Source: Glutamicibacter nicotianae (lineage in GTDB: Bacteria; Actinomycetota; Actinomycetes; Actinomycetales; Micrococcaceae). Taken from it: 64,000 bases of DNA. Shown here piece by piece: positions 57 to 16,888 of the stretch. The stretch is taken from the NCBI RefSeq assembly GCF_006539525.1, contig NZ_BJNE01000004.1:1-64000 (forward strand), in the 5' to 3' direction. The notes below the pieces were generated by a model, which worked only from the letters and a program-made list of their open reading frames with translations, did not search any database and was not told the DNA's origin. The translations under genes and the position numbers were made by a program. Numbering within the stretch: position 1 is the stretch's first letter; the number at the start of each line of letters is the position of its first letter.

Positions 57-208
57 ATCAGTTCCCGCTAGTCGTCCAACATTTCCCAGCCGTACTTGCG
101 AACGATTCTCTTAGGTTTTTTCATACTCTCGTACGAGAGCAACATTAACTCCACGAATCTACAGTGGAATCACAGCCTTTTACTCCTAGAAATGAGACAC
201 AGAGCCCC

Positions 209-1615
209 ATGTCCACAGAAACTGGATCCGCCCCAAAGTTCGTTAACGGCGATGTATCTTTTTGGATGCGCAGCACCGAAACACCAGTGAGGCGCCCTGC
301 CCTTGATGGCCACACCACAGCAGATGTCGCAATTATCGGTGCCGGCCTCACTGGCCTCTGGACTGCCTATTACCTTAAAAAGGCTCGGCCGAACCTGGAT
401 ATCGCCATAATTGAACGCGAGTACGCCGGTTTCGGTGCATCAGGGCGCAACGGCGGTTGGATGAGCGCCGAGCCTGCCGGTCAGTTCAAACGCTACGCCA
501 AGTCTGGAGGTCTCCAAGGCGCACGCGATTTACAACGCGAAATGTTCGGCGCGGTACGTCAGTCTGTCGAGGTCGCTCGTGCCGAAGGATTTGATGAGGA
601 CCTAGCTCACGATGGGCTAATTCACGTTGCTACCAACGCTGCGCAGCTCTCACGCCTCAGCCACCACGTAGCGGAAATGAAAGAGCAGGGATGGGGACAG
701 AACGATGTCTTTCAATTGAGTCCCCATGAGCTAGCACAACGTGTCCATGTTGAAGGCGCCCAAGGTGGTTATTGGACTCCCCACTGCGCTCGAGTTCATC
801 CAGCAAAATACACCCGTGGTCTGGCAAAGGTGGTTGAGGATCTTGGTGTTAAGATCTATGAGTCAACCACCGCGCTGAGCGTTGAGCAGCATCTGGTGAA
901 AACCGACCGAGGCAATGTTTCGGCGAACTTCATCGTTGAAGCGCTCGAAGGTTATACCTCCTCACTCAAGGGTAAAGCCCGCAAGCTACTGCCAATGAAC
1001 AGCAGCATGGTCATCACCGAACAACTCACCGACGCTCAGCTCAAGACCGTGGGGTGGCACGGCGGCGAACTTGTAGGCGACGCCGCACATTCCTTCACCT
1101 ATATGCACCGAACACAAGACGGTCGAATCGCGATCGGTGGACGCGGCGTACCATACAATTTCCGCTCCAGCTTCGACCGCAATGGAAAGACTGCAGAATC
1201 GGCTGTCATACTGCTCAAGCAACGACTAGGTGAGCTCTTCCCGAGCCTGGCCAATGTGAACCTTGAACAGTCTTGGTCCGGAGTTCTAGGTGTACCTCGG
1301 GACTGGTGCGCCTCGGTGAATTTTGACAAGTCCTCGAACATCCTCAGCGCCGGAGGATACGTTGGGCACGGTCTTTCCGGCACAAACCTAGCAGGGCGCA
1401 CGCTGCGGGATCTGATTCTTGGCGAAACCACCACACTAACCACTCTGCCTTGGATAGGGCGTCAGGCCCGCAACTGGGAAGTTGAACCGATTCGCTGGAT
1501 CGGCGCCACCGCGCTCTACGGTGTATACCGTTATGCAGACAACAGGGAATACGCAAATGCACAACCTCGTACTCACTGGACCGCCCGAATGGCTAATGTC
1601 GTCAGCGGCCGCTAG
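209..1615 (+). CDS. FAD-dependent oxidoreductase (DAO family, PuuB/DadA-like)
   Basis: Flavoprotein of 468 aa that probably oxidises an amine or amino acid, as gamma-glutamylputrescine oxidase and related DAO-fold enzymes do. The FAD-binding dinucleotide motif GAGLTGLWTAYYL lies about 45 residues in, followed by an acidic strand end (IIERE). Near the C-terminus GGYVGHGLSGTNLAGR is the second FAD-contacting region typical of this family. An in-frame ATG at 164 is possible, but 209 fits the family N-terminus better; neither has a strong ribosome-binding site. Codon use is less GC-biased than in the moa or pca genes. The stop codon TAG (1613-1615) lies inside the duplicated target of the neighbouring insertion sequence, so the protein is unchanged by the insertion. 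Substrate is unknown; no polyamine genes are adjacent. Confidence 0.85.
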   Translation: MSTETGSAPKFVNGDVSFWMRSTETPVRRPALDGHTTADVAIIGAGLTGLWTAYYLKKARPNLDIAIIEREYAGFGASGRNGGWMSAEPAGQFKRYAKSGGLQGARDLQREMFGAVRQSVEVARAEGFDEDLAHDGLIHVATNAAQLSRLSHHVAEMKEQGWGQNDVFQLSPHELAQRVHVEGAQGGYWTPHCARVHPAKYTRGLAKVVEDLGVKIYESTTALSVEQHLVKTDRGNVSANFIVEALEGYTSSLKGKARKLLPMNSSMVITEQLTDAQLKTVGWHGGELVGDAAHSFTYMHRTQDGRIAIGGRGVPYNFRSSFDRNGKTAESAVILLKQRLGELFPSLANVNLEQSWSGVLGVPRDWCASVNFDKSSNILSAGGYVGHGLSGTNLAGRTLRDLILGETTTLTTLPWIGRQARNWEVEPIRWIGATALYGVYRYADNREYANAQPRTHWTARMANVVSGR

Positions 1616-1616
1616 T
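1611..1616. repeat. Target-site duplication, left copy (GCTAGT)
   Basis: GCTAGT directly abuts the left end of the insertion sequence and recurs at 2709-2714. It fits the NCTAGN target known for IS481-type elements. It contains the TAG stop of the upstream oxidase and, on the other strand, the TAG stop of the transposase frame. Confidence 0.85.
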
Positions 1617-2614
1617 TGTAGTTCCCCGCGAGGTTGTGAACACGATCTGACGGAGTAAGACCACCGATCCCGGTATGGGGTCGATGATAATTATAGTGAT
1701 GAAGCCAGGCGCCGTAGGCTGCGGCCCTGGCTTCTTCGCTGTCATAAGCCCTCACGTACGCCCATTCCTGCGACAACGTCCGGTTGAACCGTTCGACTTT
1801 CCCATTGGTCTGAGGTCGATACGGTCGGGTGCGCCGGTGCTTCACGCCCGGCCCCAACGCCTGGGCGAACACCTTGGAACGGTAGCAGGAACCGTTATCG
1901 GTCATCACCGCGGTGACGGCAATGCCGGCCGCGGCGAAGAATCCACGGGCTCGCTCCCAGAACCGGCTGCGGTTTCCTTCTTCTCGTCATTGAGGATTTC
2001 GAAAATAGGCCAGCTTCGAATGGTCATCGACCGCGTGATGCAGGAAAAGATAGCCCCGTGACCCCTTGGCGCCCTGGCGTGCCGCACGGTCCCGCGCGGC
2101 ACCGGCCTGGCGGTCTTGGGCTGAACCGCGACCATGCGCGCGCCAGCCTCCGCCCTTTGGGATGCAGCCAAGTTTCTTGATGTCCACATGCACCAGCTCG
2201 CCCGGTGTCTGCTTCTCGTAGCGCACAGGGCGGGGCTTGCGTACCGGTAGCCCGGTGGCCTGGTCCAGATGCGCCAGTTTGGGCATCCGGTAGCGGTCCA
2301 GGACGCGTCCGACGGTGCTACGGGGAATGCCGAGGTGGTAGCTGATCCGGTGTGGTCCCCATTGCCGGTTGAAGCGTAGGGCGATGATGCGGCGTTCGTT
2401 CTTGCGGCACAGTCGTGTCGGAGAGCAACTAGGGCGTGAGGAGCGGTCGTCGAGGGATTCGTTGGCATGGTATCTCGTTGCCCATTTTTTTGGCTGTTGC
2501 GGGCGAGACCTGGAATCGTTCGGCGGCGCGGCGGATGGGCCAGTGCTCATCGATGATCAAGGACGCTAGGCGTCGTCTTCCTTCGGGCGTCAGTGGTGCG
2601 TTAGCGTGGGACAT
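1612..2614 (-). pseudogene. IS481-family transposase, disrupted by three frameshifts
   Basis: The leftward coding region begins MSHANAPLTPEGRRRL with an N-terminal helix-turn-helix (RRAAERFQVSPATAKK). It continues in a second frame through the HTH_29-like linker and first catalytic Asp (VHVDIKKLG), then in further frames to the second Asp (MTDNGS) and the Glu (KVERFNRTL). The frame is lost at three places. A run of seven A/T at 2485-2491 breaks ATAKKW-ATRY; an extra base near 2002-2006 breaks LAY-EILNDEKKE; a missing base near 1961-1966 breaks ETAAG-FWERARG. Joining the frames gives a normal-length (~330 aa) transposase. The final Asn codon and the stop TAG lie in the target duplication, not in the element. 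Three independent lesions make programmed frameshifting an unlikely explanation. Confidence 0.9.
1617..1643 (+). repeat. IS terminal inverted repeat, left
   Basis: 27-bp repeat starting TGTAGTTCCCCGCG. It differs from the reverse complement of the right end only at its 13th and 16th bases. It also encodes the last residues of the transposase on the minus strand. Confidence 0.92.
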
Positions 2615-2681
2615 GAAGACCTCCGTGCACGATGGTGAGTGTGGTAACCCACATCCTGCCGGAGGTCTTCTTCATTCGCTA

Positions 2682-2708
2682 GTGTTCACAACGTCCCGGG
2701 GAACTACA
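2682..2708 (-). repeat. IS terminal inverted repeat, right
   Basis: 27-bp end that reads TGTAGTTCCCCGGG on the minus strand and pairs with 1617-1643. The transposase start lies about 70 bases inside it. Confidence 0.92.
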
Positions 2709-2714
2709 GCTAGT
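2709..2714. repeat. Target-site duplication, right copy (GCTAGT)
   Basis: Exact copy of 1611-1616 directly adjoining the right end. Removing the element and one copy would restore a continuous sequence reading out of the oxidase stop codon. Confidence 0.85.
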
Positions 2715-2777
2715 GGCCACGTCCTTCAAATCGATAAATCGTGAACAACACAACAGGCCCAGACCGAGTCCCCAAGG

Positions 2778-3185
2778 CTAAAGCCCTACCCATTCTGAAC
2801 TGCCTGAAGTGAAATGCTGTTTCTTCCAGATGGGGACCTCGGCCTTGATGCGTTCCACCAGGTTCTCGATGGCGTCGAATGCTTCCTTGCGGTGTGCCGC
2901 TGCCGAGGCAGCGACCAGCGCGGCGTCGCCGATCTTCAGTGGACCCACGCGGTGCACTGCGGAAAGCTTGAGCCCGGTGTGTTCTTCTTCCTCGGCAATG
3001 ATTTTCTCCAGGAAATCCTGAGCCTGCGGGTGATGCGAGTAGTCAAGGGAATTCACCGACTGGCCGCCGTCATGGTTGCGAATGATGCCGTGGAAGAGCA
3101 CCACCGCGCCTGCAGTATCGGATTGCACAGCATCGCGCACTGCGGCCTCGTCGATAGGTTCTTCGGTGATCAACGCGTAGCTCAT
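2778..3185 (-). CDS. moaE: Molybdopterin synthase catalytic subunit MoaE
   Basis: MoaE (135 aa) transfers sulfur from the MoaD thiocarboxylate to precursor Z (cPMP), forming the molybdopterin dithiolene. Family marks are VVLFHGIIRNHDGGQSV (substrate pocket), LDYSHHPQAQ, HRVGPLKIGDAALVAASAAAHR with the conserved Lys, and the C-terminal VPIWKKQHF. Length is typical. Its ATG overlaps the moeB stop codon (ATGA), so the two are translationally coupled in a leftward moeB-moaE unit. Its partner moaD is read the opposite way just upstream of moeB. Confidence 0.95.
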   Translation of the reverse strand: MSYALITEEPIDEAAVRDAVQSDTAGAVVLFHGIIRNHDGGQSVNSLDYSHHPQAQDFLEKIIAEEEEHTGLKLSAVHRVGPLKIGDAALVAASAAAHRKEAFDAIENLVERIKAEVPIWKKQHFTSGSSEWVGL

Positions 3186-4363
3186 GAGTGGGCTCCTTCA
3201 GTGTGTGCGTGTTCGGCCAGCAGCTGCGGGGCCACTTCAGCCAGTGCGGGAAGCCCGCCTTCAAGGTAGTTTGTTTTGATGCCCCGGCCAGCGAGCAAGG
3301 CGGCCGCGCGTTGCGAGCGCGGACCGCGTGCGCAGTAAACCGTTACTTGAGCCGGGGTCTGCTCCAGCCCTGCGCCGGATTCGATAGCTGCTTCCAGCGC
3401 AGGCAGGGGCAGATGCAAGGAACCGGCGATGTGCTGTTGTGCGCGTTCGTCATCATTGCGCACATCCAACAAGGCTGGCGCTTTATCGCCAGATAGTTCT
3501 TCTGCGAGCGCCTTGGCATCAATGCCCTGGACCTCTGGCAGAGAACCGGAACAGAAGAGCACGTAGTCGATCAGCTCGGTGACTTCAGCACCTTCGGGAT
3601 CCCGGGAGAATTCGAGGGTGCGCGTGCTGGCTGCCAGCGCATCGTAGATCAGAACCTTACCCACCAGCGGGGTGCCGATTCCGGCGATCAGCTTCAGCGC
3701 TTCGGTGGCCAGCAGCGAACCGACAGTGCCGCACAATCCGGGCAGCACTCCCCCGGCGGCGCAGTCCGGCACGGTGCCAGGGGCAGGAGGAACCGGGAAC
3801 AGGTCGCGGTAGCCCGGGCCATGCTCATGCCAGGCCACGGAGACTTGTCCGTGGTGCTGCAGGATGGATCCCCAGATCAGCGGAATGCCCGAAAGCTGCG
3901 CTGCGTCGTTGGAAAGGTAGCGGGTCGGGAAGTTGTCGCTGCCATCGATGACCAGGTCATAATTCGCAAAGATCTCTAGTGCGTTGGAAGAATCCAGGCG
4001 CAGATTATGCTCGATGATCGTCACATTGGGGTCCAGCGACTTGGCAGCCTGCGCCAGGGAAGAGGTCTTGGCCAGGCCGATATTTGCCGTGGTGTGCGTG
4101 ACCTGGCGGTGCAGATTGGATAGTTCCACCACGTCATCATCAACGATGCCGATGGTGCCTACCCCCGCTCCGACAAGATACGGAACGCTGGCGCTGCCTA
4201 GCCCTCCGGCGCCGATTACCAGTACGCGGGCGGCAGCCAGCCTGCGCTGCGCGGTGTCATCAAATCCGGGCAGGGTCAGTTGGCGTGCGGCGCGAGCAGC
4301 CTGTTCCTCGCTCAGTGGCGGCCCGGGGGCCACCAGCGCGGGAAAGTCGCGTTCACTTTTCAT
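3182..4363 (-). CDS. moeB: MoeB/MoeZ-type adenylyltransferase-sulfurtransferase
   Basis: This E1-like enzyme (393 aa) adenylates the C-terminal glycine of MoaD and, through a C-terminal rhodanese domain, probably supplies sulfur. The nucleotide loop GAGGLGSASVPYLVGAG starts at about residue 51; DGSDNFPTRYLSND and VPDCAAGGVLPGLCG follow. The rhodanese active-site Cys lies in VYCARGPRSQRAA. ATG 4363 was chosen because AAGGAG precedes it at good spacing and the longer reading runs into the moaD start. Two CxxC pairs that hold zinc in canonical MoeB are absent: GYRDLFP stands where CYRCLFP is usual, and the pair before VTELIDY is missing. The Cys in VPDC is kept. Confidence 0.92.
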   Translation of the reverse strand: MKSERDFPALVAPGPPLSEEQAARAARQLTLPGFDDTAQRRLAAARVLVIGAGGLGSASVPYLVGAGVGTIGIVDDDVVELSNLHRQVTHTTANIGLAKTSSLAQAAKSLDPNVTIIEHNLRLDSSNALEIFANYDLVIDGSDNFPTRYLSNDAAQLSGIPLIWGSILQHHGQVSVAWHEHGPGYRDLFPVPPAPGTVPDCAAGGVLPGLCGTVGSLLATEALKLIAGIGTPLVGKVLIYDALAASTRTLEFSRDPEGAEVTELIDYVLFCSGSLPEVQGIDAKALAEELSGDKAPALLDVRNDDERAQQHIAGSLHLPLPALEAAIESGAGLEQTPAQVTVYCARGPRSQRAAALLAGRGIKTNYLEGGLPALAEVAPQLLAEHAHTEGAHS

Positions 4364-4400
4364 CGTGCTCCTTATCGCGTTGGCGCGGTAGCATGAAGTC

Positions 4401-4652
4401 ATGTCGAAGATTACAATACGCTACTTCGCTGCCGCGGCGGCAGCAGCTGGCTGCGAGCAGGAGAGCTGGGAACGCCCGCAAACGCTCGCCGGGCTGCGTA
4501 GCGAACTGATCGATTCCTACGGGCCAGAAATGGCACAGGTTTTGCGTGCCGGAAGTTTCCTGGTCAACGGCGTGGTGCGCCGAGATGCCGGAGAACTGGG
4601 CTCGGCCGAAGATCTCACAGTGGACGTACTGCCACCGTTTGCTGGAGGATAG
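4401..4652 (+). CDS. moaD: Molybdopterin synthase sulfur-carrier subunit MoaD
   Basis: Ubiquitin-like sulfur carrier of 83 aa. The C-terminus PPFAGG carries the terminal Gly-Gly that is adenylated by MoeB and converted to a thiocarboxylate. FLVNGVVRR and DLTVDVLPPFAGG are conserved family segments. The start lies only 37 bases from the divergent moeB start, so both promoters must overlap opposite coding or leader sequence. moeA follows after 3 bases, implying one transcript moaD-moeA-moaC-mogA. Confidence 0.93.
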   Translation: MSKITIRYFAAAAAAAGCEQESWERPQTLAGLRSELIDSYGPEMAQVLRAGSFLVNGVVRRDAGELGSAEDLTVDVLPPFAGG

Positions 4653-4655
4653 CCG

Positions 4656-5888
4656 ATGACCTGCACCCTGGAGAATCATCGCGCAGAACTTGAAACGCTG
4701 TTGTCCCCGGTCTTCGCTTCCCTGGACAGCGAAAAGCTGTTGGCTGATAGCCCCGAGGCAAACGGCCGCATCCTCAGCGAGGATCTGTACGCCCTTTTGC
4801 CCATCCCCGCATTCACCAATTCGCAAATGGACGGCTACGCTGCACGCAGCGCGGACTTGGCGACGGCAACGCCGCAGTCCCCTGTCACCTTGCCATTGGG
4901 TTTCACGGCGGCCGCCGGCGACCGGCAAATCACCTTGGCTGAAGGAACTGCCAGCCCGGTGATGACCGGGGCCATGATCCCGCTGGGGGCCGATACCGTG
5001 ATCCCCATCGAGGAAAGCAGCTCCGGGGCTTTCCCGGACTTGGTTCGGGCAGGCCGTGGCACCCCGAGCGGAAACGCGGAGTTCACTGCTCCCAGCGAAC
5101 CAGGCCGTTTCATCCGCCCCGCCGGCGTCGACCTTGAAGCCGGCGCCTTGGTGGCCCAGGCCGGAACCCGGCTGACCCCGACCATGATTGCTGCATTGGT
5201 TTCCAGTGGACTGCGTGAAGTACCGGTACGCCGCGCATTGAAGGTGGCCGTGTGCACTACCGGTGACGAGCTCAGTGATGATCAGCCTTCCCAGGGCCAG
5301 ATCCCGGACTCGAACTCCCCCATGCTCACCGCCTGGCTGCGCCAATACCAGGTGAAGGTGCGCACCCTGCAATTGCCAGATGATCCAAAGCGCTTCGCGC
5401 TGACTATTGATGCCTTGCAGGAACAGGTTGACCTGATTCTGACCGTAGGCGGAATCAGCGCCGGAGCTTATGAAGTGGTCCGCCAGGCTCTTGCGCCGCT
5501 GGGCGGTGCGTTCCACCACGTGGCAATCCAGCCTGGTGGTCCGCAAGGCTTCGCCCAGCTGCCCCAGGCAGCGGTGCTGTGCTTCCCCGGCAACCCGGTC
5601 AGTGCGCTGCTATCGGCTGAACTATTTTTGGCCCCGCTGCTGCGCAAGCTCAACGCCTTGCCCGATCCGGTGCCGCAGCACTACCCGCTGGCAGCCGATG
5701 CCAACTCCCCCGAGCACAAGCACCAGGTGCGCAGGGCAGTGATCCGCGATGGCCAGGTCGCCATCCTGGATCCGGGGTCCCATCTGGTCCACGACCTGGC
5801 CCGCGCCGATGCGCTGGTGCACATCCCGGTAGGCGTCAGCCAGCTGGCGGCCGGCCAAAGCATTGAAACTTGGAGCATGAATGTCTGA
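4656..5888 (+). CDS. moeA: Molybdopterin molybdenumtransferase MoeA
   Basis: MoeA (410 aa) inserts molybdate into adenylated molybdopterin. Visible marks are PAFTNSQMDGYAARSADL (substrate loop), the PVMTGAMIPLGADTVIPIEE segment, CTTGDEL, GQIPDSNSPML, and the MoCF domain TVGGISAGAYEVV with CFPGNPVSALLSAELF. Domain order (MoeA N, MoCF-binding, MoeA C) and length are canonical. It overlaps the moaC start by 8 bases, so it is translated in a tight operon. Confidence 0.95.
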   Translation: MTCTLENHRAELETLLSPVFASLDSEKLLADSPEANGRILSEDLYALLPIPAFTNSQMDGYAARSADLATATPQSPVTLPLGFTAAAGDRQITLAEGTASPVMTGAMIPLGADTVIPIEESSSGAFPDLVRAGRGTPSGNAEFTAPSEPGRFIRPAGVDLEAGALVAQAGTRLTPTMIAALVSSGLREVPVRRALKVAVCTTGDELSDDQPSQGQIPDSNSPMLTAWLRQYQVKVRTLQLPDDPKRFALTIDALQEQVDLILTVGGISAGAYEVVRQALAPLGGAFHHVAIQPGGPQGFAQLPQAAVLCFPGNPVSALLSAELFLAPLLRKLNALPDPVPQHYPLAADANSPEHKHQVRRAVIRDGQVAILDPGSHLVHDLARADALVHIPVGVSQLAAGQSIETWSMNV

Positions 5889-6357
5889 GAAACTCACCCA
5901 CCTGCGCGAAGATGGCAGCGCTCATATGGTCGACGTCAGCGACAAGGCGGTCACCAAGCGGGTGGCTACCGCCGAGGCCATCTTTGCCACCCGCCCGGAT
6001 GTCGTCCCGATGCTGATGACCGGAGACCTGCCCAAGGGCGAGGCGCTGGGTACCGCACGCATCGCTGGCATCATGGCGGCCAAGCGCACCTGGGAACTGG
6101 TCCCGCTGTGCCATCCGCTGCCGATTTCCAAGGTGTCCATTGATTTCACCGCCGAGGAATCGGCCGTGCGAGTCACCGCCCAGGTGACCACCAAGGGTGT
6201 CACCGGAGTGGAGATGGAAGCATTGACCGCCGCCAGTGTCGCCGCGCTGACCCTCTACGACATGGTCAAGGCCGTGGACAAGCACGCCGAGGTCCGCTCG
6301 GTGAAGGTGCTGTCCAAGTCCGGTGGCAAGAGCGGGGACTGGGTTCGTGGAGAGTAG
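5881..6357 (+). CDS. moaC: Cyclic pyranopterin monophosphate synthase MoaC
   Basis: MoaC (158 aa) converts the MoaA product to cyclic pyranopterin monophosphate. The sequence shows MVDVSDKAVTKRVATAEA, GTARIAGIMAAKRTWELVPLCHPLPI, and GVTGVEMEALTAASVAALTLYDMVKAVDK, which hold the conserved His, Glu and Lys of the active site. No moaA gene lies in the window, so its partner must be elsewhere. The 3' end overlaps mogA. Confidence 0.96.
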   Translation: MSEKLTHLREDGSAHMVDVSDKAVTKRVATAEAIFATRPDVVPMLMTGDLPKGEALGTARIAGIMAAKRTWELVPLCHPLPISKVSIDFTAEESAVRVTAQVTTKGVTGVEMEALTAASVAALTLYDMVKAVDKHAEVRSVKVLSKSGGKSGDWVRGE

Positions 6358-6838
6358 CCGCACAGCGGCCGTGGTGGTCGCCTCGACCAGCGCCGCGGCC
6401 GGCAAAGCAGAAGACAAGACCGGCCCGCTGATCACCCGGTGGCTGTCCGAGCGCGGTTTCGCCACCGGGCAGCCGACGGTGGTAGCCGACGGGCAGCCGG
6501 TGCGTTTCGCCGTGGATGAGCTGCTGGCCAATGGCAGCCAGGTAGTGATCGTCACCGGCGGGACCGGGGTCTCGCCGGATGACCAATCCCCCGAAATGGT
6601 TGCCCCGCTGCTGGATGTCCAGTTGCCCGGTATCATCGAGGCCATCCGCCGGCGCGGAGAGGCCTCAACCCCGATGTCCATCATTACCCGCGGGGTGGCA
6701 GGATTCGCCGGCAGCAGCTTCGTGATCACGTTGCCCGGATCCACCGGCGGGGTGAAGGACGGGCTGGACGTCCTGGATCTGATCCTGGAGCACCTGCTGG
6801 CCCAGCGCGGCGGCGGTGCCGGGCACGGCCCGCGCTAA
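6347..6838 (+). CDS. mog: Molybdopterin adenylyltransferase (MogA/MoaB family)
   Basis: The enzyme (about 163 aa) activates molybdopterin by adenylation before MoeA inserts the metal. Family motifs are KTGPLITRWLSERGF, the MoCF signature VIVTGGTGVSPDDQSPE, and LPGSTGGVKDGLDVLDLILEHLL. The GTG at 6347 overlaps the moaC stop and is preferred; an upstream GTG at 6323 would add 8 residues without a better ribosome-binding site. MogA and MoaB paralogues cannot be separated by eye. It is the last cofactor gene of the rightward unit. Confidence 0.9.
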   Translation: MESSRTAAVVVASTSAAAGKAEDKTGPLITRWLSERGFATGQPTVVADGQPVRFAVDELLANGSQVVIVTGGTGVSPDDQSPEMVAPLLDVQLPGIIEAIRRRGEASTPMSIITRGVAGFAGSSFVITLPGSTGGVKDGLDVLDLILEHLLAQRGGGAGHGPR

Positions 6839-6877
6839 AGTTTTCCTGCATCTCAATTGACCAGAAAGGCCGCCACG

Positions 6878-7087
6878 TTGAGCATCGAACCCGGCATCTA
6901 CCAGCATTTCAAGGGACAGCGCTATGAGGTGCTGGCCGTGGGAAAGCACAGCGAGACCGAAGAGCCGCTGGTCTTCTACCGCAAGCTCTACGATGACTAC
7001 AGCTTCTGGGCCCGGCCGCTTCAAATGTTCGCGGAACACGTTGAACGCGACGGCTACAGCGGACCGCGGTTCGCCAGGATCGCATAG
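6878..7087 (+). CDS. DUF1653 domain protein
   Basis: Small soluble protein of 69 aa. It matches DUF1653 through PGIYQHFKGQRYEVLAVGKHSETEEPLVFYRKLYDDYSFWARPLQMF. The function of the family is not established. TTG at 6878 is preferred because AGAAAGG precedes it; an earlier TTG at 6857 lacks this. It follows mogA by about 40 bases in the same direction and may ride on the same transcript, but nothing in it suggests a cofactor role. Confidence 0.75.
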   Translation: MSIEPGIYQHFKGQRYEVLAVGKHSETEEPLVFYRKLYDDYSFWARPLQMFAEHVERDGYSGPRFARIA

Positions 7088-7111
7088 GTCCGGTCGCGGA
7101 ATTCCCTGGCT

Positions 7112-7543
7112 CTACTGCGAGTCGGCCTCGTTATAGCGTGCCAAGGCTTCGGCAAAGGTGGAGATCTGCTCTTCGCTCCAGCCATCCAGGCGGTCGGCTA
7201 CCGCGGCGCGGTGCACTGCGGCGGATGCCTGGAGCCGATCGCTTCCCAGCTCAGTCAGTTCCAGTACGCGCCCGCGCCCTGATTCGGTAGCGTCATAGGC
7301 GGCATACCCCAAGTCCAGCAACGTACCGACCTGCCGGGAAACTGTCGACCGGTTCAGCGAGAACGCCTCGGCAATGTCGGTGGCCCGAGTTCCGGGAGTA
7401 TCGGCAATGAAGCGCAGCAGGGAATGCTCCACGAGCGTCAACGGCTCGGCCAGCTGGCGGGAGCGCGAATTTGCCCGCCGGGTAATCAGTTGCATGTGGT
7501 GGAAAATCGATTGGATGTCGGCTTCGCGCTGTTCCTTGCCCAT
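7112..7543 (-). CDS. MarR-family transcriptional regulator
   Basis: A 143-aa winged-helix regulator. The helix-turn-helix is TRATDIAEAFSLNRSTVSRQVGTLLDLGYA, followed by the wing DATESGRGRVLELTELG. It is divergent from a membrane protein gene, and the interval of about 80 bases holds a 27-bp palindrome, the expected site for a MarR dimer. It probably represses itself and the neighbour until a ligand (for this family often a phenolic or toxic compound) binds. Confidence 0.9.
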   Translation of the reverse strand: MGKEQREADIQSIFHHMQLITRRANSRSRQLAEPLTLVEHSLLRFIADTPGTRATDIAEAFSLNRSTVSRQVGTLLDLGYAAYDATESGRGRVLELTELGSDRLQASAAVHRAAVADRLDGWSEEQISTFAEALARYNEADSQ

Positions 7544-7577
7544 GTACCGAGTCTAGTACCCAGGGCTTCATCGGAAT

Positions 7578-7612
7578 CTTAAAGTTGCATCATGCAACAT
7601 TAAGAGTATTCT
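7578..7612 (+). promoter_or_regulatory. MarR operator overlapping a promoter
   Basis: GTTGCATcATGCAAC (7584-7598) is a perfect 7-1-7 palindrome that extends outward to CTTAA...TTAAG (7578-7604) with one mismatch. TTGCAT (7585-7590) can serve as -35 and TATTCT (7607-7612) as -10 with a 16-bp spacer, placing transcription at or just before the ATG at 7622. The site therefore covers the promoter of the membrane protein and also lies in front of the marR gene. Confidence 0.7.
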
Positions 7613-7621
7613 TGGGTGCTG

Positions 7622-8722
7622 ATGACTCTCACCGACACCGCCCCGCGCCCATCCTCCGACTCCACGCAGACCGTCTCCGTGGACGCAAAGCCGTCCCCTG
7701 CGCCCAAGCGGGCACCGCTGGGCTGGGGAAAGCTGGCCTTGACCATGCTGATCCCGTTCTTCCTGTGCGCAATCATGGGCTTGTTCTATCTGGGCGCATT
7801 CCATGCACCCAGTCCGCACAACGTGCAGGTAGCAGTCGTCGGCGGTTCCGCGCAGTCCAAGGTCTTCGCCCAAACCTTGCAGGATGAATCCGACGGCGCC
7901 TTGGGAGTGCGCACCGTCGCTGATGCCGCGCAGGCTCGGAAACTGGTCGGACAGCGCGAGCTCGCGGCCGCCTACGAAACAGGCAACGGCACCGCAACGC
8001 TGTACATTTCCAGCGCAGCATCGGAAACGTCGGCGAATATCGCCCAGAAGATCTTCATGGACGTGGCCTATGAGCAGGACCTGCCCTTGCGCATCGAGGA
8101 TGTCGTGCCCACGGGAGCGCAGGACACCACCGGGCAGGGCCTGTTCTTCCTGCTGGTTGCATTGAGCATTGGCGGCTATGCCAGCGCCGTTCCGCTGGCC
8201 GGGTTCATGGGCAAGGTCAAGTTGCCGGTGCGCCTGTTCCTGGCGGCGGTCGCCGCCGCAGTGGTTGCCACGATCGCAGTGATCATCGCAGGCCCGGTCT
8301 ACGGGATCATCGAGTCCCGGTTCACGGGCATCTGGTTGACTTCCTGGGTTTATGCCGCCGGCATCACCTTGCTGGGCCTGGGCCTGCATCCGCTGCTGCG
8401 CCACTGGACCACCCCAGTGCTGACGCTATGCTTCGTCGCGTTGAACTTCACGAGCTCCGGCGGCATCTTCCAGCCCCAGATGCAGCCCGGCTTCTATGGT
8501 GCACTGAACTCGTTCTGGAATGGCGCAGGGTGGCTGCATGCTGTGCAGACCCTGGTCTACTTTCCCGAGCAGTCCATTAGCATTGATATCCTGCGGCTGC
8601 TGTTGTGGCTCATTCCCGGGATCCTGCTGGTGATCCTGACCCACGCCTGGAGCGTGCACAGAACCCGCATCGCGAACGAGCATGCCGCGATCCAGGACGT
8701 CGAAGAGGCTGTCGCGGCCTAG
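7622..8722 (+). CDS. Membrane protein, ABC-2/YhgE-Pip-like, putative export component
   Basis: The 366-aa protein has a cytoplasmic N-terminus, one membrane segment (KLALTMLIPFFLCAIMGLFYLGAF), an extracellular region of about 120 residues, and four to five further helices in the C-terminal half. This layout is that of YhgE/Pip and ABC-2-type membrane proteins. No ATPase is adjacent. ATG 7622 suits a leaderless transcript; a GTG two codons earlier is also in frame. Pairing with the divergent MarR gene suggests an inducible efflux or envelope-stress role, which is inference. It converges on the next gene with a shared CTAG. Confidence 0.72.
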   Translation: MTLTDTAPRPSSDSTQTVSVDAKPSPAPKRAPLGWGKLALTMLIPFFLCAIMGLFYLGAFHAPSPHNVQVAVVGGSAQSKVFAQTLQDESDGALGVRTVADAAQARKLVGQRELAAAYETGNGTATLYISSAASETSANIAQKIFMDVAYEQDLPLRIEDVVPTGAQDTTGQGLFFLLVALSIGGYASAVPLAGFMGKVKLPVRLFLAAVAAAVVATIAVIIAGPVYGIIESRFTGIWLTSWVYAAGITLLGLGLHPLLRHWTTPVLTLCFVALNFTSSGGIFQPQMQPGFYGALNSFWNGAGWLHAVQTLVYFPEQSISIDILRLLLWLIPGILLVILTHAWSVHRTRIANEHAAIQDVEEAVAA

Positions 8723-9012
8723 CCGGCAGGCAGTCTTGATCGTGCTTTGGCCAGCGCGCGCCGCAGTCCGTCGACCGCATCACCCATCGCCGGGGTGCCG
8801 GCATCCTGGAATGATCCCATGCCACCCCGATATAGCCGCATCGCCTGAGCGGTGGCGGCACGCAACTCCTTGCGGGTCGATACCTGACCAAACAGCTCAT
8901 CGAGCGACTGTGCCACGCCCGCCCGCTGCGCATCGCCGTCCATTGCCGCCGCCTCGCGCAGTTTCGAGATGGCTTGCCGGATCTCGCGCAGGCGCTTCTC
9001 TACCGTGTGCAT
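8719..9012 (-). CDS. Small helical hypothetical protein
   Basis: Protein of 97 aa, almost wholly predicted helix and rich in Arg and Ala (MHTVEKRLREIRQAISKLRE; C-terminal GDAVDGLRRALAKARSRL). No signal peptide or membrane segment is seen and no family was recognised with confidence. Its stop overlaps the stop of the convergent membrane protein gene by four bases (CTAG). Codon bias fits a real gene. It lies just downstream of the monooxygenase on the same strand. Confidence 0.6.
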   Translation of the reverse strand: MHTVEKRLREIRQAISKLREAAAMDGDAQRAGVAQSLDELFGQVSTRKELRAATAQAMRLYRGGMGSFQDAGTPAMGDAVDGLRRALAKARSRLPAG

Positions 9013-9045
9013 GGTTCTAGGCTAGCCGCCTCCTTGCTGCCGGCG

Positions 9046-10080
9046 CTATTTGCCCAACGCGGCGCGCACTTGCGGCAGCACCTCGGTGGCCAGCAGCTCG
9101 ATGGAGCGCAAGGTCTGCGCCTGCGAAAGGCCGCCAAGCCCCACCTGCGCCAGGAAGCGGGTGTGGCCCAGCATCTCGTGCTCCCACAGGATCTTGTCCA
9201 CGATTTCTGCCGGACTGCCGGCAAAGAGCGCCCCGCGCGGGGAGGCCCATGCCTCGAAGGACTCCCGATCCAGAAATCCTGCACGCGGCATGTTCTGCCC
9301 GATGTAGGAGCTGTAATGCGGGTAGAAGCTGTTCCGGGCGCCCTGCGAGGTTTCCTCGGCATAGAAGTGCGAGGTTACCCCGATGCGTCCTGGCTCGCGC
9401 CCGGCTTCGTGCGCGGCACGGCGATAGAGCTGGGCCAGCGGCCCGAAGCGTTCAGGTGCGCCGAGGATCGCCAGATACAGCGGCAATCCTAGCCGGCCGG
9501 CACGCACCGCCGAGGCCGGCGTGCCGCCCACGGCCGCCCAGATGGGCAGTTGCTCCTGATCCGGACGAGGCCAGACCCCCGCCTCGTCCAACGGCGCGCG
9601 GGTGTTCCCGCTCCAGGTCACGGGGTTTTCGTCGCGGATCTTCAGCAGCAGATCCAGCTTTTCCTCGAAGTACTCGTCATAGCGTTCCAGCGACTGGCCG
9701 AAGAGCGGGAAGGATTCCAGGTACGCCCCGCGGCCGGCAGTGATTTCGGCGCGGCCGCCGCTGACCAGATCCACGGTGGAGAAGTCCTCGAACACGCGCA
9801 CCGGGTCGGCGGATGAAAGCACCGTGACGGTACTGGTCAGCTTGATGCTCTGGGTTTGCACCGCGGCGGCAGCGAGCACTACCGGCGGGGCGGAGACTGC
9901 GAAGTCCTCGCGGTGATGCTCGCCCACGCCAAAGACGTCCAGTCCGGCTTGGTCTGCGACCCGGGCCCATTCCAGGATGTCGCGCACCCTGGTGGCCGCA
10001 TCGATGGGCTTGCCGTCGGCATCCCTGGTCAGTTCCCCGAAGGTGAAGATGCCGATTTCAAAGGGCGCGCCCTGGCTCAT
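9046..10080 (-). CDS. LLM-class flavin-dependent oxidoreductase
   Basis: A luciferase-like monooxygenase of 344 aa with a TIM-barrel fold; such enzymes use reduced FMN or F420. Marks are EIGIFTFGELTRD at the N-terminus, FGVGEHHREDFAVSAPPVVLAAAA, VTVLSSADPVRVFEDFSTVDLVSGGRAEITAGRG, PIWAAVGGTPASAVRAGRLGLPLYLA and a C-terminal GSPAEIVDKILWEHEMLG. It overlaps the upstream esterase gene by 4 bases (ATGA), so the two are coupled. The substrate is unknown. Confidence 0.88.
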   Translation of the reverse strand: MSQGAPFEIGIFTFGELTRDADGKPIDAATRVRDILEWARVADQAGLDVFGVGEHHREDFAVSAPPVVLAAAAVQTQSIKLTSTVTVLSSADPVRVFEDFSTVDLVSGGRAEITAGRGAYLESFPLFGQSLERYDEYFEEKLDLLLKIRDENPVTWSGNTRAPLDEAGVWPRPDQEQLPIWAAVGGTPASAVRAGRLGLPLYLAILGAPERFGPLAQLYRRAAHEAGREPGRIGVTSHFYAEETSQGARNSFYPHYSSYIGQNMPRAGFLDRESFEAWASPRGALFAGSPAEIVDKILWEHEMLGHTRFLAQVGLGGLSQAQTLRSIELLATEVLPQVRAALGK

Positions 10081-10727
10081 GCGTTGCCTGCCGCCTTCGC
10101 ATCCAGCTGCGCGGAAATGTGGCTGCGCACGTCGTTCAGCTCATCCATGTTGATGCTGTGGGCCAGCCCCGGGTAGGTGCGTTCATTCAGGGTCGAGTGC
10201 TCGGGCAGGAACCCGGCGGTCCGTTCGATGGCGACCGGGGCGATGACCCGGTCTTCGGTGCCGCGGCCCCAGAAGACGGCGGGGCGCTGGGCGGCGATGA
10301 TTTCATCGGCTGGCTGGGTGCCGCCAAGCACGAAGCCGCCGAGGATCGTGGTGGCCAGGACGCGCTCGGGACGGGTGCGCAGCAGCTGGCTGGCCATCAG
10401 CCCGCCCTGGGAGAAACCGACCGGAATGATCTTGGTGGAGGCGTCCGCATTTGCGTCGATCCAGGCCCAGATGGCTGCGGTGGCAGCTTCCACCGGTGCC
10501 GCGACGGGGACGCCCGGTGTGGCGATCTGGAACCAGGCGGCCCCGCCGTGGCCCAATTCCAGTGGTGCGCGCAGTGAAACCCACGGCATTTCCAGGCCCA
10601 GCGGTTCGGCCAGCGAGGCCAGGTCGTGCTCATTGGAGCCGAAGCCATGCAGGAAGACCAGCACGGCGCCGGATTCCGCGGCGTCATCCCAGTTGGAAGA
10701 ACGTACATCGCTCAACAGGTTGCTCAT
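10077..10727 (-). CDS. Alpha/beta hydrolase, phospholipase/carboxylesterase family
   Basis: Cytoplasmic hydrolase of 216 aa. The oxyanion region is VFLHGFGSNEHDL and the nucleophile elbow is GFSQGG (Ser). Asp lies in GTEDRVIAP and His in LAHSINMDE, giving a complete Ser-Asp-His triad. Length and motif order fit the carboxylesterase/thioesterase-1 group. It is the first gene of a two-gene unit with the luciferase-like monooxygenase, suggesting joint breakdown of an ester or lactone; this is inference. Confidence 0.88.
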   Translation of the reverse strand: MSNLLSDVRSSNWDDAAESGAVLVFLHGFGSNEHDLASLAEPLGLEMPWVSLRAPLELGHGGAAWFQIATPGVPVAAPVEAATAAIWAWIDANADASTKIIPVGFSQGGLMASQLLRTRPERVLATTILGGFVLGGTQPADEIIAAQRPAVFWGRGTEDRVIAPVAIERTAGFLPEHSTLNERTYPGLAHSINMDELNDVRSHISAQLDAKAAGNA

Positions 10728-11179
10728 GGCAGGTCAGCTCCTCATCAGTTGCCGGAGGCGGAAGTGCAGCTTTCGCAGCAACCCTCCCGGCAGAGTTCAT
10801 AGTCCAAGCATACTGGAATTGATTGAAGATACAAGTAAATTTTTTCAATCCAACTCGTCACATGCACCCGACCAGGCCCATTCGGAATCTCTGAAGCGAG
10901 CTACACTGCGATCCAGTTCACCCCCTGCCAAGAGTCGCGAGGCTGCAGCACGAACCTGCTGGTCAACAAAGTTAATCCCGGCCCGGAATCGGCCCGAAGC
11001 GAATGCGAAAACTCGGGGATTCCCCTTGGCGGAATCATTGAAACCGGAGGTGTCCCAGCCCACTTCACGCAAGAATTCGGCGGCAGAAAACTCTGGACAG
11101 CGATCAAAATTGCTGTGATCATTTCCTTTTACTACTGGCCGGTAGCAAGTTTCTTCCAACTTTTACCCGAAGGACCACC
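10728..11179. other. Intergenic stretch without a convincing gene
   Basis: About 450 bases between divergent genes, with an AT-rich patch near 10810-10860 suited to a promoter. A minus-strand frame at 10845-11159 (about 100 codons) has no ribosome-binding site, mixed third-base use and no recognised family. It may be a gene remnant. The last part (11160-11179) carries a CCGAAGGACC ribosome-binding site for the lipase. Confidence 0.3.
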
Positions 11180-12061
11180 ATGCAACGACGCATACTCTCC
11201 GGTCTGGGCGCACTGTGCCTGGCCGCCGCAGCACTCGCCGCTCCGGCCGTCGCGCCAAGCCCGGCAAGCACCGCGCAAGCCGGCACGGTTTCCACTCTTG
11301 GCATCAGCCCAGTGGGAGCCAACGACTGGGACTGCACGCCCGATGCAGAACACCCCTACCCCGTAGTCCTGGTTCACGGCACCTTTGAAACGATGGACCT
11401 CAACTGGATCTCCCTGTCTCCCAAGCTCAAGCGCAACGGCTATTGCGTTTTCGCACTGAACTACGGCTTTGAAAACGGGCTTTCCGGGGCCGCGCATGTC
11501 CCCGACTCGGCGGCCGAACTGGGCGATTTCATTGACCGCATCCGCCAGTCCACCGGTGCCAAGAAGGTGGACATCGTCGGGCACAGCCAAGGCGGAATGA
11601 TGCCGCGCTGGTACATGGGCCACATGGGCGGTGCGAAGTACGTCAACGACCTGGTGTCGATCGCTCCATCCAGCCACGGCACCCAGGGCATCCTGGTCCC
11701 GACCGCCACTGGTGTGGCAATTGCCAACAGCATTGACACTTGGATCTGCGATTCCTGCGCCGACCAGGTGTCCGGCAGCGACTTCATGACCGAGCTGAAT
11801 GCCATCGGCGACACCGTTGCCGGCCCGGACTATACGGTAATTGCCACCAAGTACGACGAGATCGTCATGCCCTACAAATCGCAGTTCCTGAAGGGAGAGA
11901 GCGAACAGGTGACCAACGTCCTGCTGCAGGACAAATGCCCATTGAATATCTCGGGACACCTCGGCGTGAACGTTGATCCGGTGGTCCATCGCTGGGTGCT
12001 CAACGCCCTGGCCACCGATGGCCCGGCAGACCCCGGCTACCGCCCATCCTGCTACCTGTAA
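11180..12061 (+). CDS. Secreted lipase/esterase, alpha/beta hydrolase (lipase class 2-like)
   Basis: Secreted enzyme of 293 aa that probably hydrolyses acylglycerols. A signal peptide is clear (MQRRILSGLGALCLAAAALAA with Ala-rich cleavage region). The mature part shows YPVVLVHGTFETMDLNWISLSPKLKRNGYCVFALNYG (oxyanion region), the nucleophile motif GHSQGGM, and an Asp in TKYDEIVMPY. His is probably in the GHLGVNVDP segment. Cysteines in WDCTP, WICDSC and DKCP may form disulfides. It stands alone, followed by a hairpin. Confidence 0.88.
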   Translation: MQRRILSGLGALCLAAAALAAPAVAPSPASTAQAGTVSTLGISPVGANDWDCTPDAEHPYPVVLVHGTFETMDLNWISLSPKLKRNGYCVFALNYGFENGLSGAAHVPDSAAELGDFIDRIRQSTGAKKVDIVGHSQGGMMPRWYMGHMGGAKYVNDLVSIAPSSHGTQGILVPTATGVAIANSIDTWICDSCADQVSGSDFMTELNAIGDTVAGPDYTVIATKYDEIVMPYKSQFLKGESEQVTNVLLQDKCPLNISGHLGVNVDPVVHRWVLNALATDGPADPGYRPSCYL

Positions 12062-12073
12062 GCAGGCCAGTAC

Positions 12074-12106
12074 GCGTCCCGGCATCGCCTCCCGGTGCCG
12101 GGACGC
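12074..12106 (+). terminator. GC-rich hairpin after the lipase gene
   Basis: GCGTCCCGGCA pairs perfectly with TGCCGGGACGC around an 11-base loop, starting 13 bases past the lipase stop. There is no U-run, so termination without Rho is uncertain, as is common in actinobacteria. Confidence 0.5.
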
Positions 12107-12156
12107 ACCCGGAGCACCCCTAGGCAGTGCGCCAGCCAGCTACTAGATTGGTGGCC

Positions 12157-12555
12157 ATGGACGTACTTTCCAGCAGGGTGCTGCTGCGGCCGGTGGATCT
12201 GGCCGCAACCCAGCGGTTCTACCGCGAAGTGCTGCAGCTGGCCGTGGCCCGGGAATTCGGTCCGGCCGAGCAACCAGGCGTGGTGTTCTTCTTGGGCAAT
12301 GGCCAGCTGGAAGTCTCCGGGCGCAGGGCGCCTGGCACGCCCTCCACCTTGGTGCTCTGGATGCAGGTGCGGGATGTGCGCGCGGAACTGGAACAACTGT
12401 CCGCCCGCGGCGCGAAGGTGCTCCGCGAGGCATGCCAGGAGGACTGGGGCCTGGTCGAGGCATGGATCGAGGATCCCGACGGAACCAGGATCGTGCTGGT
12501 GCAGGTGCCGGCAGATCATCCGCTGCGCCGGGACGTGCGCGGGCCGCGAAAATAA
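12157..12555 (+). CDS. VOC/glyoxalase-family protein
   Basis: Protein of 132 aa with the vicinal-oxygen-chelate fold. VLLRPVDLAATQRFYREVLQL is the typical first module start, and EAWIEDPDGTRIVLVQVP the end of the second with its metal-position Glu/Asp. ATG 12157 is chosen over a longer reading frame from 12127, which has no ribosome-binding site. The substrate is unknown; such small VOC proteins include resistance proteins and dioxygenase-like enzymes. Confidence 0.8.
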   Translation: MDVLSSRVLLRPVDLAATQRFYREVLQLAVAREFGPAEQPGVVFFLGNGQLEVSGRRAPGTPSTLVLWMQVRDVRAELEQLSARGAKVLREACQEDWGLVEAWIEDPDGTRIVLVQVPADHPLRRDVRGPRK

Positions 12556-12639
12556 AAGCTGGCGTGCGTGCCGTGCCCGTGGCAAGCTGAAACCGAGCGC
12601 CGCTGAGGAGGTCGGCGGCCCGTGGAAAAGGGGCATGCC

Positions 12640-13239
12640 ATGCGTTTCGACCCGTCCAGGACTGCAGTGGTGTCCATCCACAATCAATGGGACATCATCG
12701 GGCCCGATGGCGCCTTCGCGCACCTGTTCCACGAGCAGATCACCGCCCGGAACGTGGTGGGCAAACTGTCCGGGCTGCTGGACCAGGCCCGCACGGCCGG
12801 CGCCACCATCATCTACACCCGCATCGCCTTCGCCCCGGACTACAGCGACCTGGTGCCCAATTCCCCGCTGCTGCAGCTGGTGCAGCAGGCAGGCGCCCTG
12901 GTGGACGGCACCGGATCGGCGGCCATCATCCAGCCGCTGCTGCCTGGCCCCGGCGACGCGGTGATCACCAACCAGCAGGTCGGCGGCTTCGGCACCGAAC
13001 TAGCTGGGCTGCTCGAATCCGGTGGCATCGACACCCTGCTGATTGCCGGGGTGGCGACGAATATCTCGGTGGAAAGCACCGCCCGGGCGGCTGTGGACCA
13101 CGGCTGCCGGGTAGTGATCGTGGAAGATGCCTGCTCGGCGGCCGCCGAGGCCGCCCATGCGGCGAGCATCGAATCGCTCGGGCTGCTCGCCACGATCACC
13201 GGCTGCGCCGACATCCAATGGGATCCGGCCGCTGGCTGA
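12640..13239 (+). CDS. Isochorismatase-fold protein with substituted catalytic triad
   Basis: The fold is that of isochorismatase/nicotinamidase cysteine hydrolases (199 aa). GVATNISVESTARAAVDHGCRVVIVEDAC and the preceding strands match well. The three catalytic positions differ, however: the usual Asp of IDMQ is His14 (SIHNQ), the Lys before the SAF-like segment is Asn111 (TNQQVGGF), and the nucleophile Cys is Ser143 (TNISVES). Either it uses other chemistry (Ser nucleophile) or it is a non-enzymatic homologue. ATG 12640 has GAAAAGGGG upstream and is preferred to GTG 12622. It converges on the pca regulator gene. Confidence 0.82.
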   Translation: MRFDPSRTAVVSIHNQWDIIGPDGAFAHLFHEQITARNVVGKLSGLLDQARTAGATIIYTRIAFAPDYSDLVPNSPLLQLVQQAGALVDGTGSAAIIQPLLPGPGDAVITNQQVGGFGTELAGLLESGGIDTLLIAGVATNISVESTARAAVDHGCRVVIVEDACSAAAEAAHAASIESLGLLATITGCADIQWDPAAG

Positions 13240-13252
13240 TCCACTGCGGCCG

Positions 13253-14035
13253 CTAGCGGCTGGCGGCCAGCGCCTCGCGCACCTGCTGCGCGGCTTCGAG
13301 AAGCCGCGGCAGCACCGCCTGGGCGGCATCCTGCGCGGTGCCAGCGGTATTCGGATGCACGCTCATCGACACGTTCATCGCGGCCACCACGGTGCCATCG
13401 GCGCTGAACACCGGCACCGCCACCGAGCGCAACCCGATTTCCAGTTCCTGGTCCACCACCGCATAGCCCTGGGCGCGGATCTTCTCCAGTTCCTCGCGCA
13501 GCGCAGCCGCATCTCCAATGCCCAATCCGGTCATCGACTGCACCCCGGCGGACAGCACCTCCTGCTGGATTTCCGCCGGCTGGTGGGCCAGCAGCACCCG
13601 GCCCATGGAGGTATTGGCCGCAGGGAAGCGGGTGCCCACCGAAATGCCTACCCGCATGATCGAACGGGTATGCACGCGGGCGATGTAGACGATATCCGAA
13701 CCGTCAAGGATGGAGGCGGAAGCCGATTCGTGCACGGCGGCCGAGAGTTCCTCGAGCACCGGTTCGATCAACTGCGGCAAGGTGGCGCTGGACAGGTAGG
13801 CATAGCCCAGCTGCAGGACCTTGGAAGTCAGCTCGAAGTGCTTGCCGTCGGTGCGCACATAGCCCAGATCCACCAGGGTCAGCAGGAACCGCCGGGCGGT
13901 GGCCCGGGACAGGTTTGTCCGGGCGGCGACCTCGGAGAGGGTCATCGACGCGTGTTCTGCGTCGAAACTGCTGATGACCGCCAAGCCCCGGGCCAGTGAC
14001 TGGACCGATGCGGTTGGTGCTGCCTGCTCGCTCAC
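13253..14035 (-). CDS. pcaR: IclR-family regulator of the beta-ketoadipate genes (PcaR-like)
   Basis: IclR-type regulator of 260 aa. The N-terminal winged helix is SMTLSEVAARTNLSRATARRFLLTLVDLGYVRTDG. The C-terminal effector domain shows VGTRFPAANTSMGRVLLAHQP and GYAVVDQELEIGLRSVAVPVFSADG, typical of PcaR/PobR proteins that respond to beta-ketoadipate or related aromatics. It follows pcaJ on the same strand after an 82-base gap containing a hairpin. The three palindromes upstream of pcaF are candidate sites. The assignment as PcaR comes from subfamily look and context. Confidence 0.85.
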   Translation of the reverse strand: MSEQAAPTASVQSLARGLAVISSFDAEHASMTLSEVAARTNLSRATARRFLLTLVDLGYVRTDGKHFELTSKVLQLGYAYLSSATLPQLIEPVLEELSAAVHESASASILDGSDIVYIARVHTRSIMRVGISVGTRFPAANTSMGRVLLAHQPAEIQQEVLSAGVQSMTGLGIGDAAALREELEKIRAQGYAVVDQELEIGLRSVAVPVFSADGTVVAAMNVSMSVHPNTAGTAQDAAQAVLPRLLEAAQQVREALAASR

Positions 14036-14065
14036 CGTGCTCCTTGCGCGTGCTCAAATGATTGC

Positions 14066-14099
14066 GGGGTGCGCGTCCGGGTTCCCCGATGCGCACCCC
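14066..14099 (-). terminator. Hairpin between pcaJ and the IclR gene
   Basis: GGGGTGCGC (14066-14074) pairs perfectly with GCGCACCCC (14091-14099). It lies between pcaJ and the regulator on the same strand, so it may partly terminate pcaF-I-J transcripts and keep regulator levels low. No U-run follows on the minus strand. Confidence 0.45.
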
Positions 14100-14117
14100 A
14101 CTAATCTACTGTGTCTG

Positions 14118-14774
14118 CTATGCCTTGGTCAGTTCCACCGGAACCTTGGCCGCCAGCTGATCGAAGCTGATGCCATGGGTGGAGCGCACGAAGACCTTCG
14201 AATCGCGCAGCTCGAAGACCGCGACTTCGGTGTAGATCCGCGAGACGCAGCCCAGGCCGGTGACCGGGTAGCTCAGCGCCTCGACGAGCTTGGATTCACC
14301 GGCCTTGGTGAACAGGCTCATCATTACCCAGGTCGCCTTGGCGCCGATGGCCAGGTCCATGGCGCCGCCCACTGCGGGGATGGCGCCTTCGGCACCGGTG
14401 TGCCAGTTGGCCAGGTCGCCGTCCTTGGAGACCTGGAAGGCGCCGAGCACGCACATATCCAGGTGCCCGCCGCGCATCATCGCGAAGGAATCAGCGTGGT
14501 GGAAGAAGGAGGCGCCGGGCAGCTCGGTGACCGGGATCTTGCCTGCATTGATCAGGTCCTCGTCGATGTCCTCGCCGGTGGCGACCGGGCCCATGCCCAG
14601 CATGCCGTTCTCGGTGTGCAGGGTAACCCCCTGCTCCTTGGTGAGGTAGTTCGAGACGTTGGTCGGCTGGCCGATGCCCAGGTTCACGAAGGCGCCGGCC
14701 GGGATGTCGGCGGCCACCAGCTGCGCCATTTCATCGCGGGTGAGCTTCGCCTCGGTGGTGCTGAATGCGCTCAT
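14118..14774 (-). CDS. pcaJ: 3-oxoadipate CoA-transferase subunit B
   Basis: Beta subunit (218 aa) of the succinyl-CoA:3-oxoadipate CoA-transferase, which activates beta-ketoadipate. The family signature appears as VNLGIGQPTNVSNYL and HTENGMLGMGP, with the catalytic Glu in ENG. GGHLDMCVLGAFQVSKDGDLANW follows. ATG 14774 overlaps the pcaI stop as TAATG, so the subunits are made in equal amounts. The active enzyme pairs it with PcaI. Confidence 0.95.
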   Translation of the reverse strand: MSAFSTTEAKLTRDEMAQLVAADIPAGAFVNLGIGQPTNVSNYLTKEQGVTLHTENGMLGMGPVATGEDIDEDLINAGKIPVTELPGASFFHHADSFAMMRGGHLDMCVLGAFQVSKDGDLANWHTGAEGAIPAVGGAMDLAIGAKATWVMMSLFTKAGESKLVEALSYPVTGLGCVSRIYTEVAVFELRDSKVFVRSTHGISFDQLAAKVPVELTKA

Positions 14775-15445: not shown

Positions 15446-15464
15446 GATGCTGCCTTTCTACAAG

Positions 15465-16676: not shown

Positions 16677-16703
16677 CGTCTCACTGCTCCATCGCTATAA
16701 GAT

Positions 16704-16718
16704 GTTCACATCGTGAAC
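16704..16718. promoter_or_regulatory. PcaR-type operator, copy 1
   Basis: GTTCACATCGTGAAC has perfect 6-bp arms around a 3-base centre and lies 28 bases upstream of the pcaF start. It is the first of three GTTC-N7-GAAC sites in the divergent pcaF/transporter region. Confidence 0.6.
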
Positions 16719-16722
16719 TTAT

Positions 16723-16737
16723 GTTCGTATGTTGAAC
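16723..16737. promoter_or_regulatory. PcaR-type operator, copy 2 (imperfect)
   Basis: GTTCGTATGTTGAAC keeps the outer GTTC and GAAC arms of copy 1 with less symmetry inside. It starts 19 bases from copy 1, about two helical turns, so both could be bound from one face of the DNA. Confidence 0.5.
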
Positions 16738-16785
16738 TTTACCAGTTTCCATCCATCGGGCACAAGGGTTTGGCCAGCCCCACCT

Positions 16786-16800: not shown

Positions 16801-16888
16801 TTTTGGTCACTATTCGAATGAGGTGCTAGTCTCACTTGGTCATGAGCTGCATCACTGCCATGGCGTCGCGTCTTCGAAAGGATCAAGA

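Follow-up and report, generated by a model that had tools for sequence, protein, structure and literature searches.

An IS481-family element at the end of an oxidase gene of Glutamicibacter nicotianae shares a target-supplied stop codon with its host gene

Structure of the locus

We analysed the first 64,000 nucleotides of contig NZ_BJNE01000004.1 of Glutamicibacter nicotianae (assembly GCF_006539525.1), hereafter the window, in which an insertion sequence lies at the 3' end of a gene for a FAD-dependent oxidoreductase. The features of this region were as follows.

164 to 1615, plus strand: host gene, FAD-dependent (DAO-type) oxidoreductase of up to 483 aa (Pfam DAO, E 4.5e-51)
1611 to 1616, no strand: left target duplication GCTAGT, with its CTAG core at 1612 to 1615
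1617 to 2708, transposase on the minus strand: IS481-family insertion sequence, 1092 bp, ends TGT...ACA
1617 to 1643, plus strand: left terminal inverted repeat, 27 bp
1612 to 1908, minus strand: C-terminal transposase piece, 98 aa (transpos_IS481, E 2.2e-39, profile positions 192-284; Pfam rve_3)
1987 to 2550, minus strand: middle transposase piece, in a different frame (transpos_IS481, E 5.8e-35, profile positions 28-163)
2429 to 2614, minus strand: N-terminal transposase piece (ORF), its frame lost before the end (NCBIfam transpos_IS481, E 4.6e-4, profile positions 1-33)
2682 to 2708, minus strand: right terminal inverted repeat, 27 bp
2709 to 2714, no strand: right target duplication GCTAGT, identical to the left copy

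IS481-family elements end in TGT...ACA with inverted repeats. The element at 1617-2708 has such ends, their outer sequence being TGTAGTTCCCCG..., with left and right terminal repeats identical at 25 of 27 bp, and it is flanked on both sides by GCTAGT, a 6-bp duplication of the family's NCTAGN type. The members described in the relevant passages of PMC6794481 and PMC2516522 likewise begin with TGT. The left target copy serves two genes, as its CTAG at 1612-1615 supplies a TAG to the oxidase on the plus strand (1613-1615) and another to the transposase frame on the minus strand. One target copy can end both frames because CTAG is palindromic and because the host gene and the transposase frame of the window copy run towards each other.

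The 1617-2708 copy was the only full-length match to the element in its own genome, and a search of that genome with the terminal repeat, allowing up to three mismatches, gave matches solely at the two ends of this copy. Two other contigs of the genome, C17 (locus L002, about 1500-1550) and C9 (locus L005, about 1470-1560), carried what look like relic ends of this type of element, the one on C9 resembling a very short element remnant.

The transposase of the window copy

Transposases of the IS481 family are single-frame DDE enzymes in which about 35 residues separate the last D from the E. In the window copy the gene was split into at least three frame-shifted pieces on the minus strand, which match successive regions of the transpos_IS481 profile and so identify an IS481-type DDE transposase; the initial 17 residues of the middle ORF (1987-2550) were unmatched by this profile. 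Each piece scored below the whole-protein cut-off of 224 bits because the transposase gene is broken, in contrast to relatives such as that at locus L007, where the transposase occupies one open frame. The C-terminal piece (1908-1612) presumably carries the final two residues of the triad (D and E), whose spacing of 34 residues fits the family; the spacing was 33-35 residues in 197 motif occurrences from the fetched loci, which were not deduplicated. The window element is probably now inactive.

The C-terminal frame ends in ...NLAGNYN, its final Asn codon consisting of one element base and two target bases, followed by the TAG inside the CTAG of the left target. Among the transposase pieces this is the only one that uses the target-supplied stop. 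An initial annotation of this DNA had described an IS481-type element whose palindromic target, in its left copy, stops both the oxidase and the transposase frame. Three profile matches and direct reading of the sequence bore out the element type and this geometry, respectively, and the breakage of the transposase into frame-shifted pieces had been overlooked.

Target and stop codon in related elements

Relatives were gathered by protein search of GTDB-based genome collections, and many, not all, of the listed matches were fetched (those left out include G074:C7, G173:C78 and G566:C6:5146). Hits short of the transposase C-terminus were skipped, leaving 310 copies from 288 sources, the window included. 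Element ends were picked by how well the terminal repeats matched and by agreement of the flanking 6-mers, with no requirement for CTAG; they were resolved in 242 of these copies (68 of the 310 had no resolved ends), and removal of 44 duplicates by flank left 198 distinct copies.

Identical 6-bp repeats flanked 155 of the 198 distinct copies, and target specificity was directly observed among them: the core was NCTAGN in 146, NCTAAN in 5 and NTTAGN in 4. The transposase probably recognises CTAG. The transposase stop lay inside the target at offset +2 in 179 of the 198 resolved copies, that of the window among them, and this constancy of offset argues that the shared stop is not due to chance. 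Just 11 of the 198 carried a stop within the element, and in 8 it lay elsewhere, all 8 being copies without identical repeats; of the 155 copies with identical repeats, 147 had a target-borne stop and 8 an internal one. The claim of the initial annotation that the element needs no stop of its own therefore held well beyond the window. Absence of an internal stop together with a stop supplied by the target is the rule in the surveyed part of the IS481 family and is not a peculiarity of the window copy, which has the target-borne stop, at offset +2, of the members that lack an internal one.

All nine non-CTAG targets with identical repeats (CTAA or TTAG) also had the transposase stop at +2. We considered that such targets might be retained for still giving a stop; CTAA and TTAG sites yield one whichever way they are read, and therefore they cannot tell recognition of the target apart from selection for a transposase stop. 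In the outer bases of the duplication, CCTAGG made up 28 of 146 insertions, compared with 11% of background CTAGs, and the remaining classes lay closer to their background shares. A few copies (L118, L121/L186, L183 and L184) had an extra in-frame stop three codons ahead of the target stop, at offset -7.

Insertions at gene ends

Insertion context was assessed with a gene caller written for this analysis (a pooled HMM). It recovered 51 of 64 annotated stops, and 3 of its 51 calls had no counterpart in the annotation. The recovery figure is optimistic, since these 64 stops, from seven annotated plasmid loci, also served to select this variant. Earlier and weaker callers recovered 35 of 64 (codon log-odds) and 30 of 64 (GC-binned HMM). 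From the 155 distinct sites we removed the 9 non-CTAG targets and 7 sites with a flank shorter than 300 bp, which left 139.

CTAG was about ten times rarer inside called genes than outside them (0.14 versus 1.50 per kb), in support of the scarcity within genes that the initial annotation had supposed; 77 of 946 called genes ended in CTAG. The 139 insertions comprised 39 on a called stop, 87 intergenic and 13 within genes, compared with 72, 450 and 108, respectively, of 630 background CTAGs in the same flanks. The final caller misses the oxidase of the window, so the window copy is counted here as intergenic, and other sites called intergenic may be genic too, among insertions and background alike. 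Stops were thus over-represented among the insertions (39/139 versus 72/630; odds ratio 3.0, p = 3e-6), and whole-set enrichment in the same direction was seen in all four gene-calling runs: the other three gave 24/85 versus 59/492 (an early caller, which placed the window copy at a stop), 39/139 versus 86/630 (codon log-odds) and 34/139 versus 79/630 (GC-binned HMM).

An excess of this kind, agreeing among callers, would be expected if the IS481 family actively preferred CTAG at gene ends, for example through a terminator or translation-termination feature, beyond CTAG itself, an explanation that we consider unlikely. However, the excess fell to an odds ratio of 1.8 (p = 0.026) when insertions were compared with short intergenic gaps only (a context table of 145 insertions, not 139, which followed a different counting rule for sites with short flanks or with another CTAG no more than 10 bases away), and the orientation of the 39 insertions at called stops was even, with 21 convergent and 18 codirectional. 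Moreover, 100 of the 139 insertions lay off called stops, the outcome that the initial annotation had set against its own suggestion that the rarity of CTAG may steer insertion to gene ends; this count comes from a caller that misses genes, including the window oxidase. Stops were over-represented, and insertion mainly at gene ends was not supported; steering is a weak effect at best.

One insertion away from a stop may be represented on the Dietzia plasmid NZ_CP027239.1 (locus L379, 3132-5803), where two coding sequences, each annotated as NAD(P)/FAD-dependent oxidoreductase, flank an IS481 element that seems to have interrupted a single gene.

Steering or survival

Microbacterium lacticum (L270-L314, G566) contained 56 IS481-family matches, 40 of them with near-equal scores against the query, and is well suited as a natural collection for statistics on target sites. 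In this recent expansion, the largest surveyed, active preference for gene ends found little echo: 10 of 42 copies lay at stops, versus 24 of 134 background sites (odds ratio 1.4, not significant), and the codon log-odds and GC-binned HMM callers gave 9/42 versus 25/134 and 9/42 versus 26/134, neither significant. Outside M. lacticum, 29 of 97 copies and 48 of 496 background sites were at stops.

All 42 M. lacticum copies had a near-identical twin, defined as a 98.5%-identical copy among the surveyed elements. Over the whole set, 22 of 98 twin copies lay at stops, compared with 17 of 41 twinless copies (Fisher p = 0.037), where twin status stands in for age only approximately, since some matches were not fetched and a "twinless" copy may have a twin among them. 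The higher share of stops in twinless copies is what survival predicts, and suggests survival and not steering as its source. Twin copies were nonetheless enriched relative to background (22/98 versus 72/630, p = 0.005), also outside M. lacticum (12/56 versus 48/496, p = 0.012), as active preference for gene ends would predict, and a weak true preference for stops is possible. We read these data as targeting of CTAG wherever it is present, helped by the rarity of CTAG in genes, after which copies that do not disrupt a gene would survive better; selection would then be the cause of the enrichment at stops. It is improbable, a little more so than an active preference itself, that IS481-family elements are mildly biased to gene-end CTAG beyond its sequence and that stop borrowing and the sparing of host genes form one evolved strategy.

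We are highly confident that the window holds an ordinary, now presumably inactive IS481-family element, placed at the oxidase end by CTAG-targeted insertion, and that no stop-seeking mechanism is needed to account for it. In the sequence of events that we propose, the DDE transposase would have inserted the element at the CTAG that ends the FAD-oxidase gene, duplicating the 6 bp GCTAGT. The transposase frame, as in this part of the IS481 family, runs off the end of the element without a stop of its own; two target bases after the last element base complete its final codon, and the TAG (or TAA) of the target supplies its stop. The choice of site would have spared the end of the host gene. Because genes contain so little CTAG, insertion at this sequence tends to leave them intact, and copies located at stops seem to persist better with time.

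The host oxidase

The C-terminus of the window oxidase was compared with those of 19 usable homologues, all of which ended either where it does or one residue beyond; rows L036 and L048 were left out, as an in-frame stop close to the beginning of the match had caused them to be misread. Fifteen homologues from the genus, including one paralogue from the same genome (44-47% identical), and three from the family (55-57% identical) ended one residue later. The closest among the matches listed, on a Rhodococcus qingshengii plasmid (78% identical), ended in SGR-stop as does the window oxidase, with TGA as its stop codon. In terms of alignment, 14 of the 19 extended one residue past the alignment to the window oxidase and the Rhodococcus homologue ended at the same residue, and the other 4, whose local alignments broke off 19-21 residues early, were placed by a multiple alignment as ending one residue later. 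Judged from these homologues, the host oxidase is not shortened by the insertion, as the initial annotation had maintained.

No empty-site allele of the oxidase locus was found in 18 genus genomes, 295 family genomes (at most five candidates scored each) or plasmids (10 of 26 records listed), and therefore it is the target duplication that supports the order of events. For the R. qingshengii homologue, the one whose downstream DNA was compared, this DNA differs from that of the window. The GC content of the oxidase segment (1-1616) was 54.6%, compared with 64.6% for 2715-20000. Because of this low GC, the best relative on a Rhodococcus plasmid and the identity of just 44-47% to the genus homologues, the oxidase segment looks acquired. 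The contig starts at window base 1, and the element sits at the border between the oxidase segment and putative molybdopterin synthesis genes on its other side.

That the oxidase once extended past the insertion site and was truncated by the element, the target TAG being an accidental junction stop, is very improbable: the GC difference means that the boundary may be rearranged, and no empty allele is to hand among the homologues found, but the element is flanked by identical 6-bp repeats and the homologues agree on the C-terminus.

Relation to described IS481 elements

NCTAGN targeting and a target-supplied transposase stop are already published for other members of the family. For TnRErm46/ISRe46 of Rhodococcus equi, the description of the element in PMC6794481 gives an NCTAGN duplication and a transposase stop that is the TAG of the flanking repeat, both as in the window element. 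The repeat there also supplies the TAG of the target gene parB, whose function is said to be uninterrupted, as the left repeat of the window supplies the host stop, and in one copy two frameshifts disrupt the transposase, recalling that of the window. According to the same description, TnRErm46 is a 6.9-kb transposon with cargo, unlike the 1092-bp window element, and its stops come from opposite repeats, the right one for the transposase and the left one for the target gene, whereas in the window one repeat serves both strands.

ISLxc2 and ISLxx4 of Leifsonia xyli resemble the window element in having an NCTAGN target with the transposase stop inside it, and the passages of PMC2516522 that deal with them do not mention the sharing of a stop with a host gene on the opposite strand, which the window copy has. 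ISRme5 of Cupriavidus metallidurans, as presented in PMC4803752, has no stop codon within the element, like the window copy, and differs from it in a transposase length that varies from 321 to 463 aa by flank; the same part of that paper attributes the absence of an internal stop to further IS481 members. For IS481 of Bordetella pertussis, the main text of PMC3053399 gives an NCTAGN consensus and an off-consensus target, CCTAAC, that matches the CTAA minority of our survey, and the words "stop codon" are absent from it.

The case by itself is thus clear and of a kind already described, with both the end of the element's protein and its tolerance by the host hinging on a four-base target. We found no count of IS481 insertions at stop codons against a CTAG background in the open-licence literature, among the matches listed. 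The survey adds such numbers, namely the frequency of the stop in the target, the set of CTAG, CTAA and TTAG targets and the over-representation of stops, highest in twinless copies, and they make steering versus survival a testable question.

The ISCmi2-like elements of Clavibacter sepedonicus plasmids are about 66-67% identical in DNA to the window element across its whole 1092 bp. The hosts differ, and the transposase on pCSL1 is annotated as a single CDS, unlike the broken gene of the window. Among the eleven best plasmid matches to the element, five (H7-H11) were annotated as IS481 and six (H1-H6) had no feature under the match. On the Rhodococcus fascians plasmid NZ_CP140265.1, an annotated IS481 gene shares its terminal CTAG with a hypothetical gene that converges on it, the same double-stop geometry as in the window.
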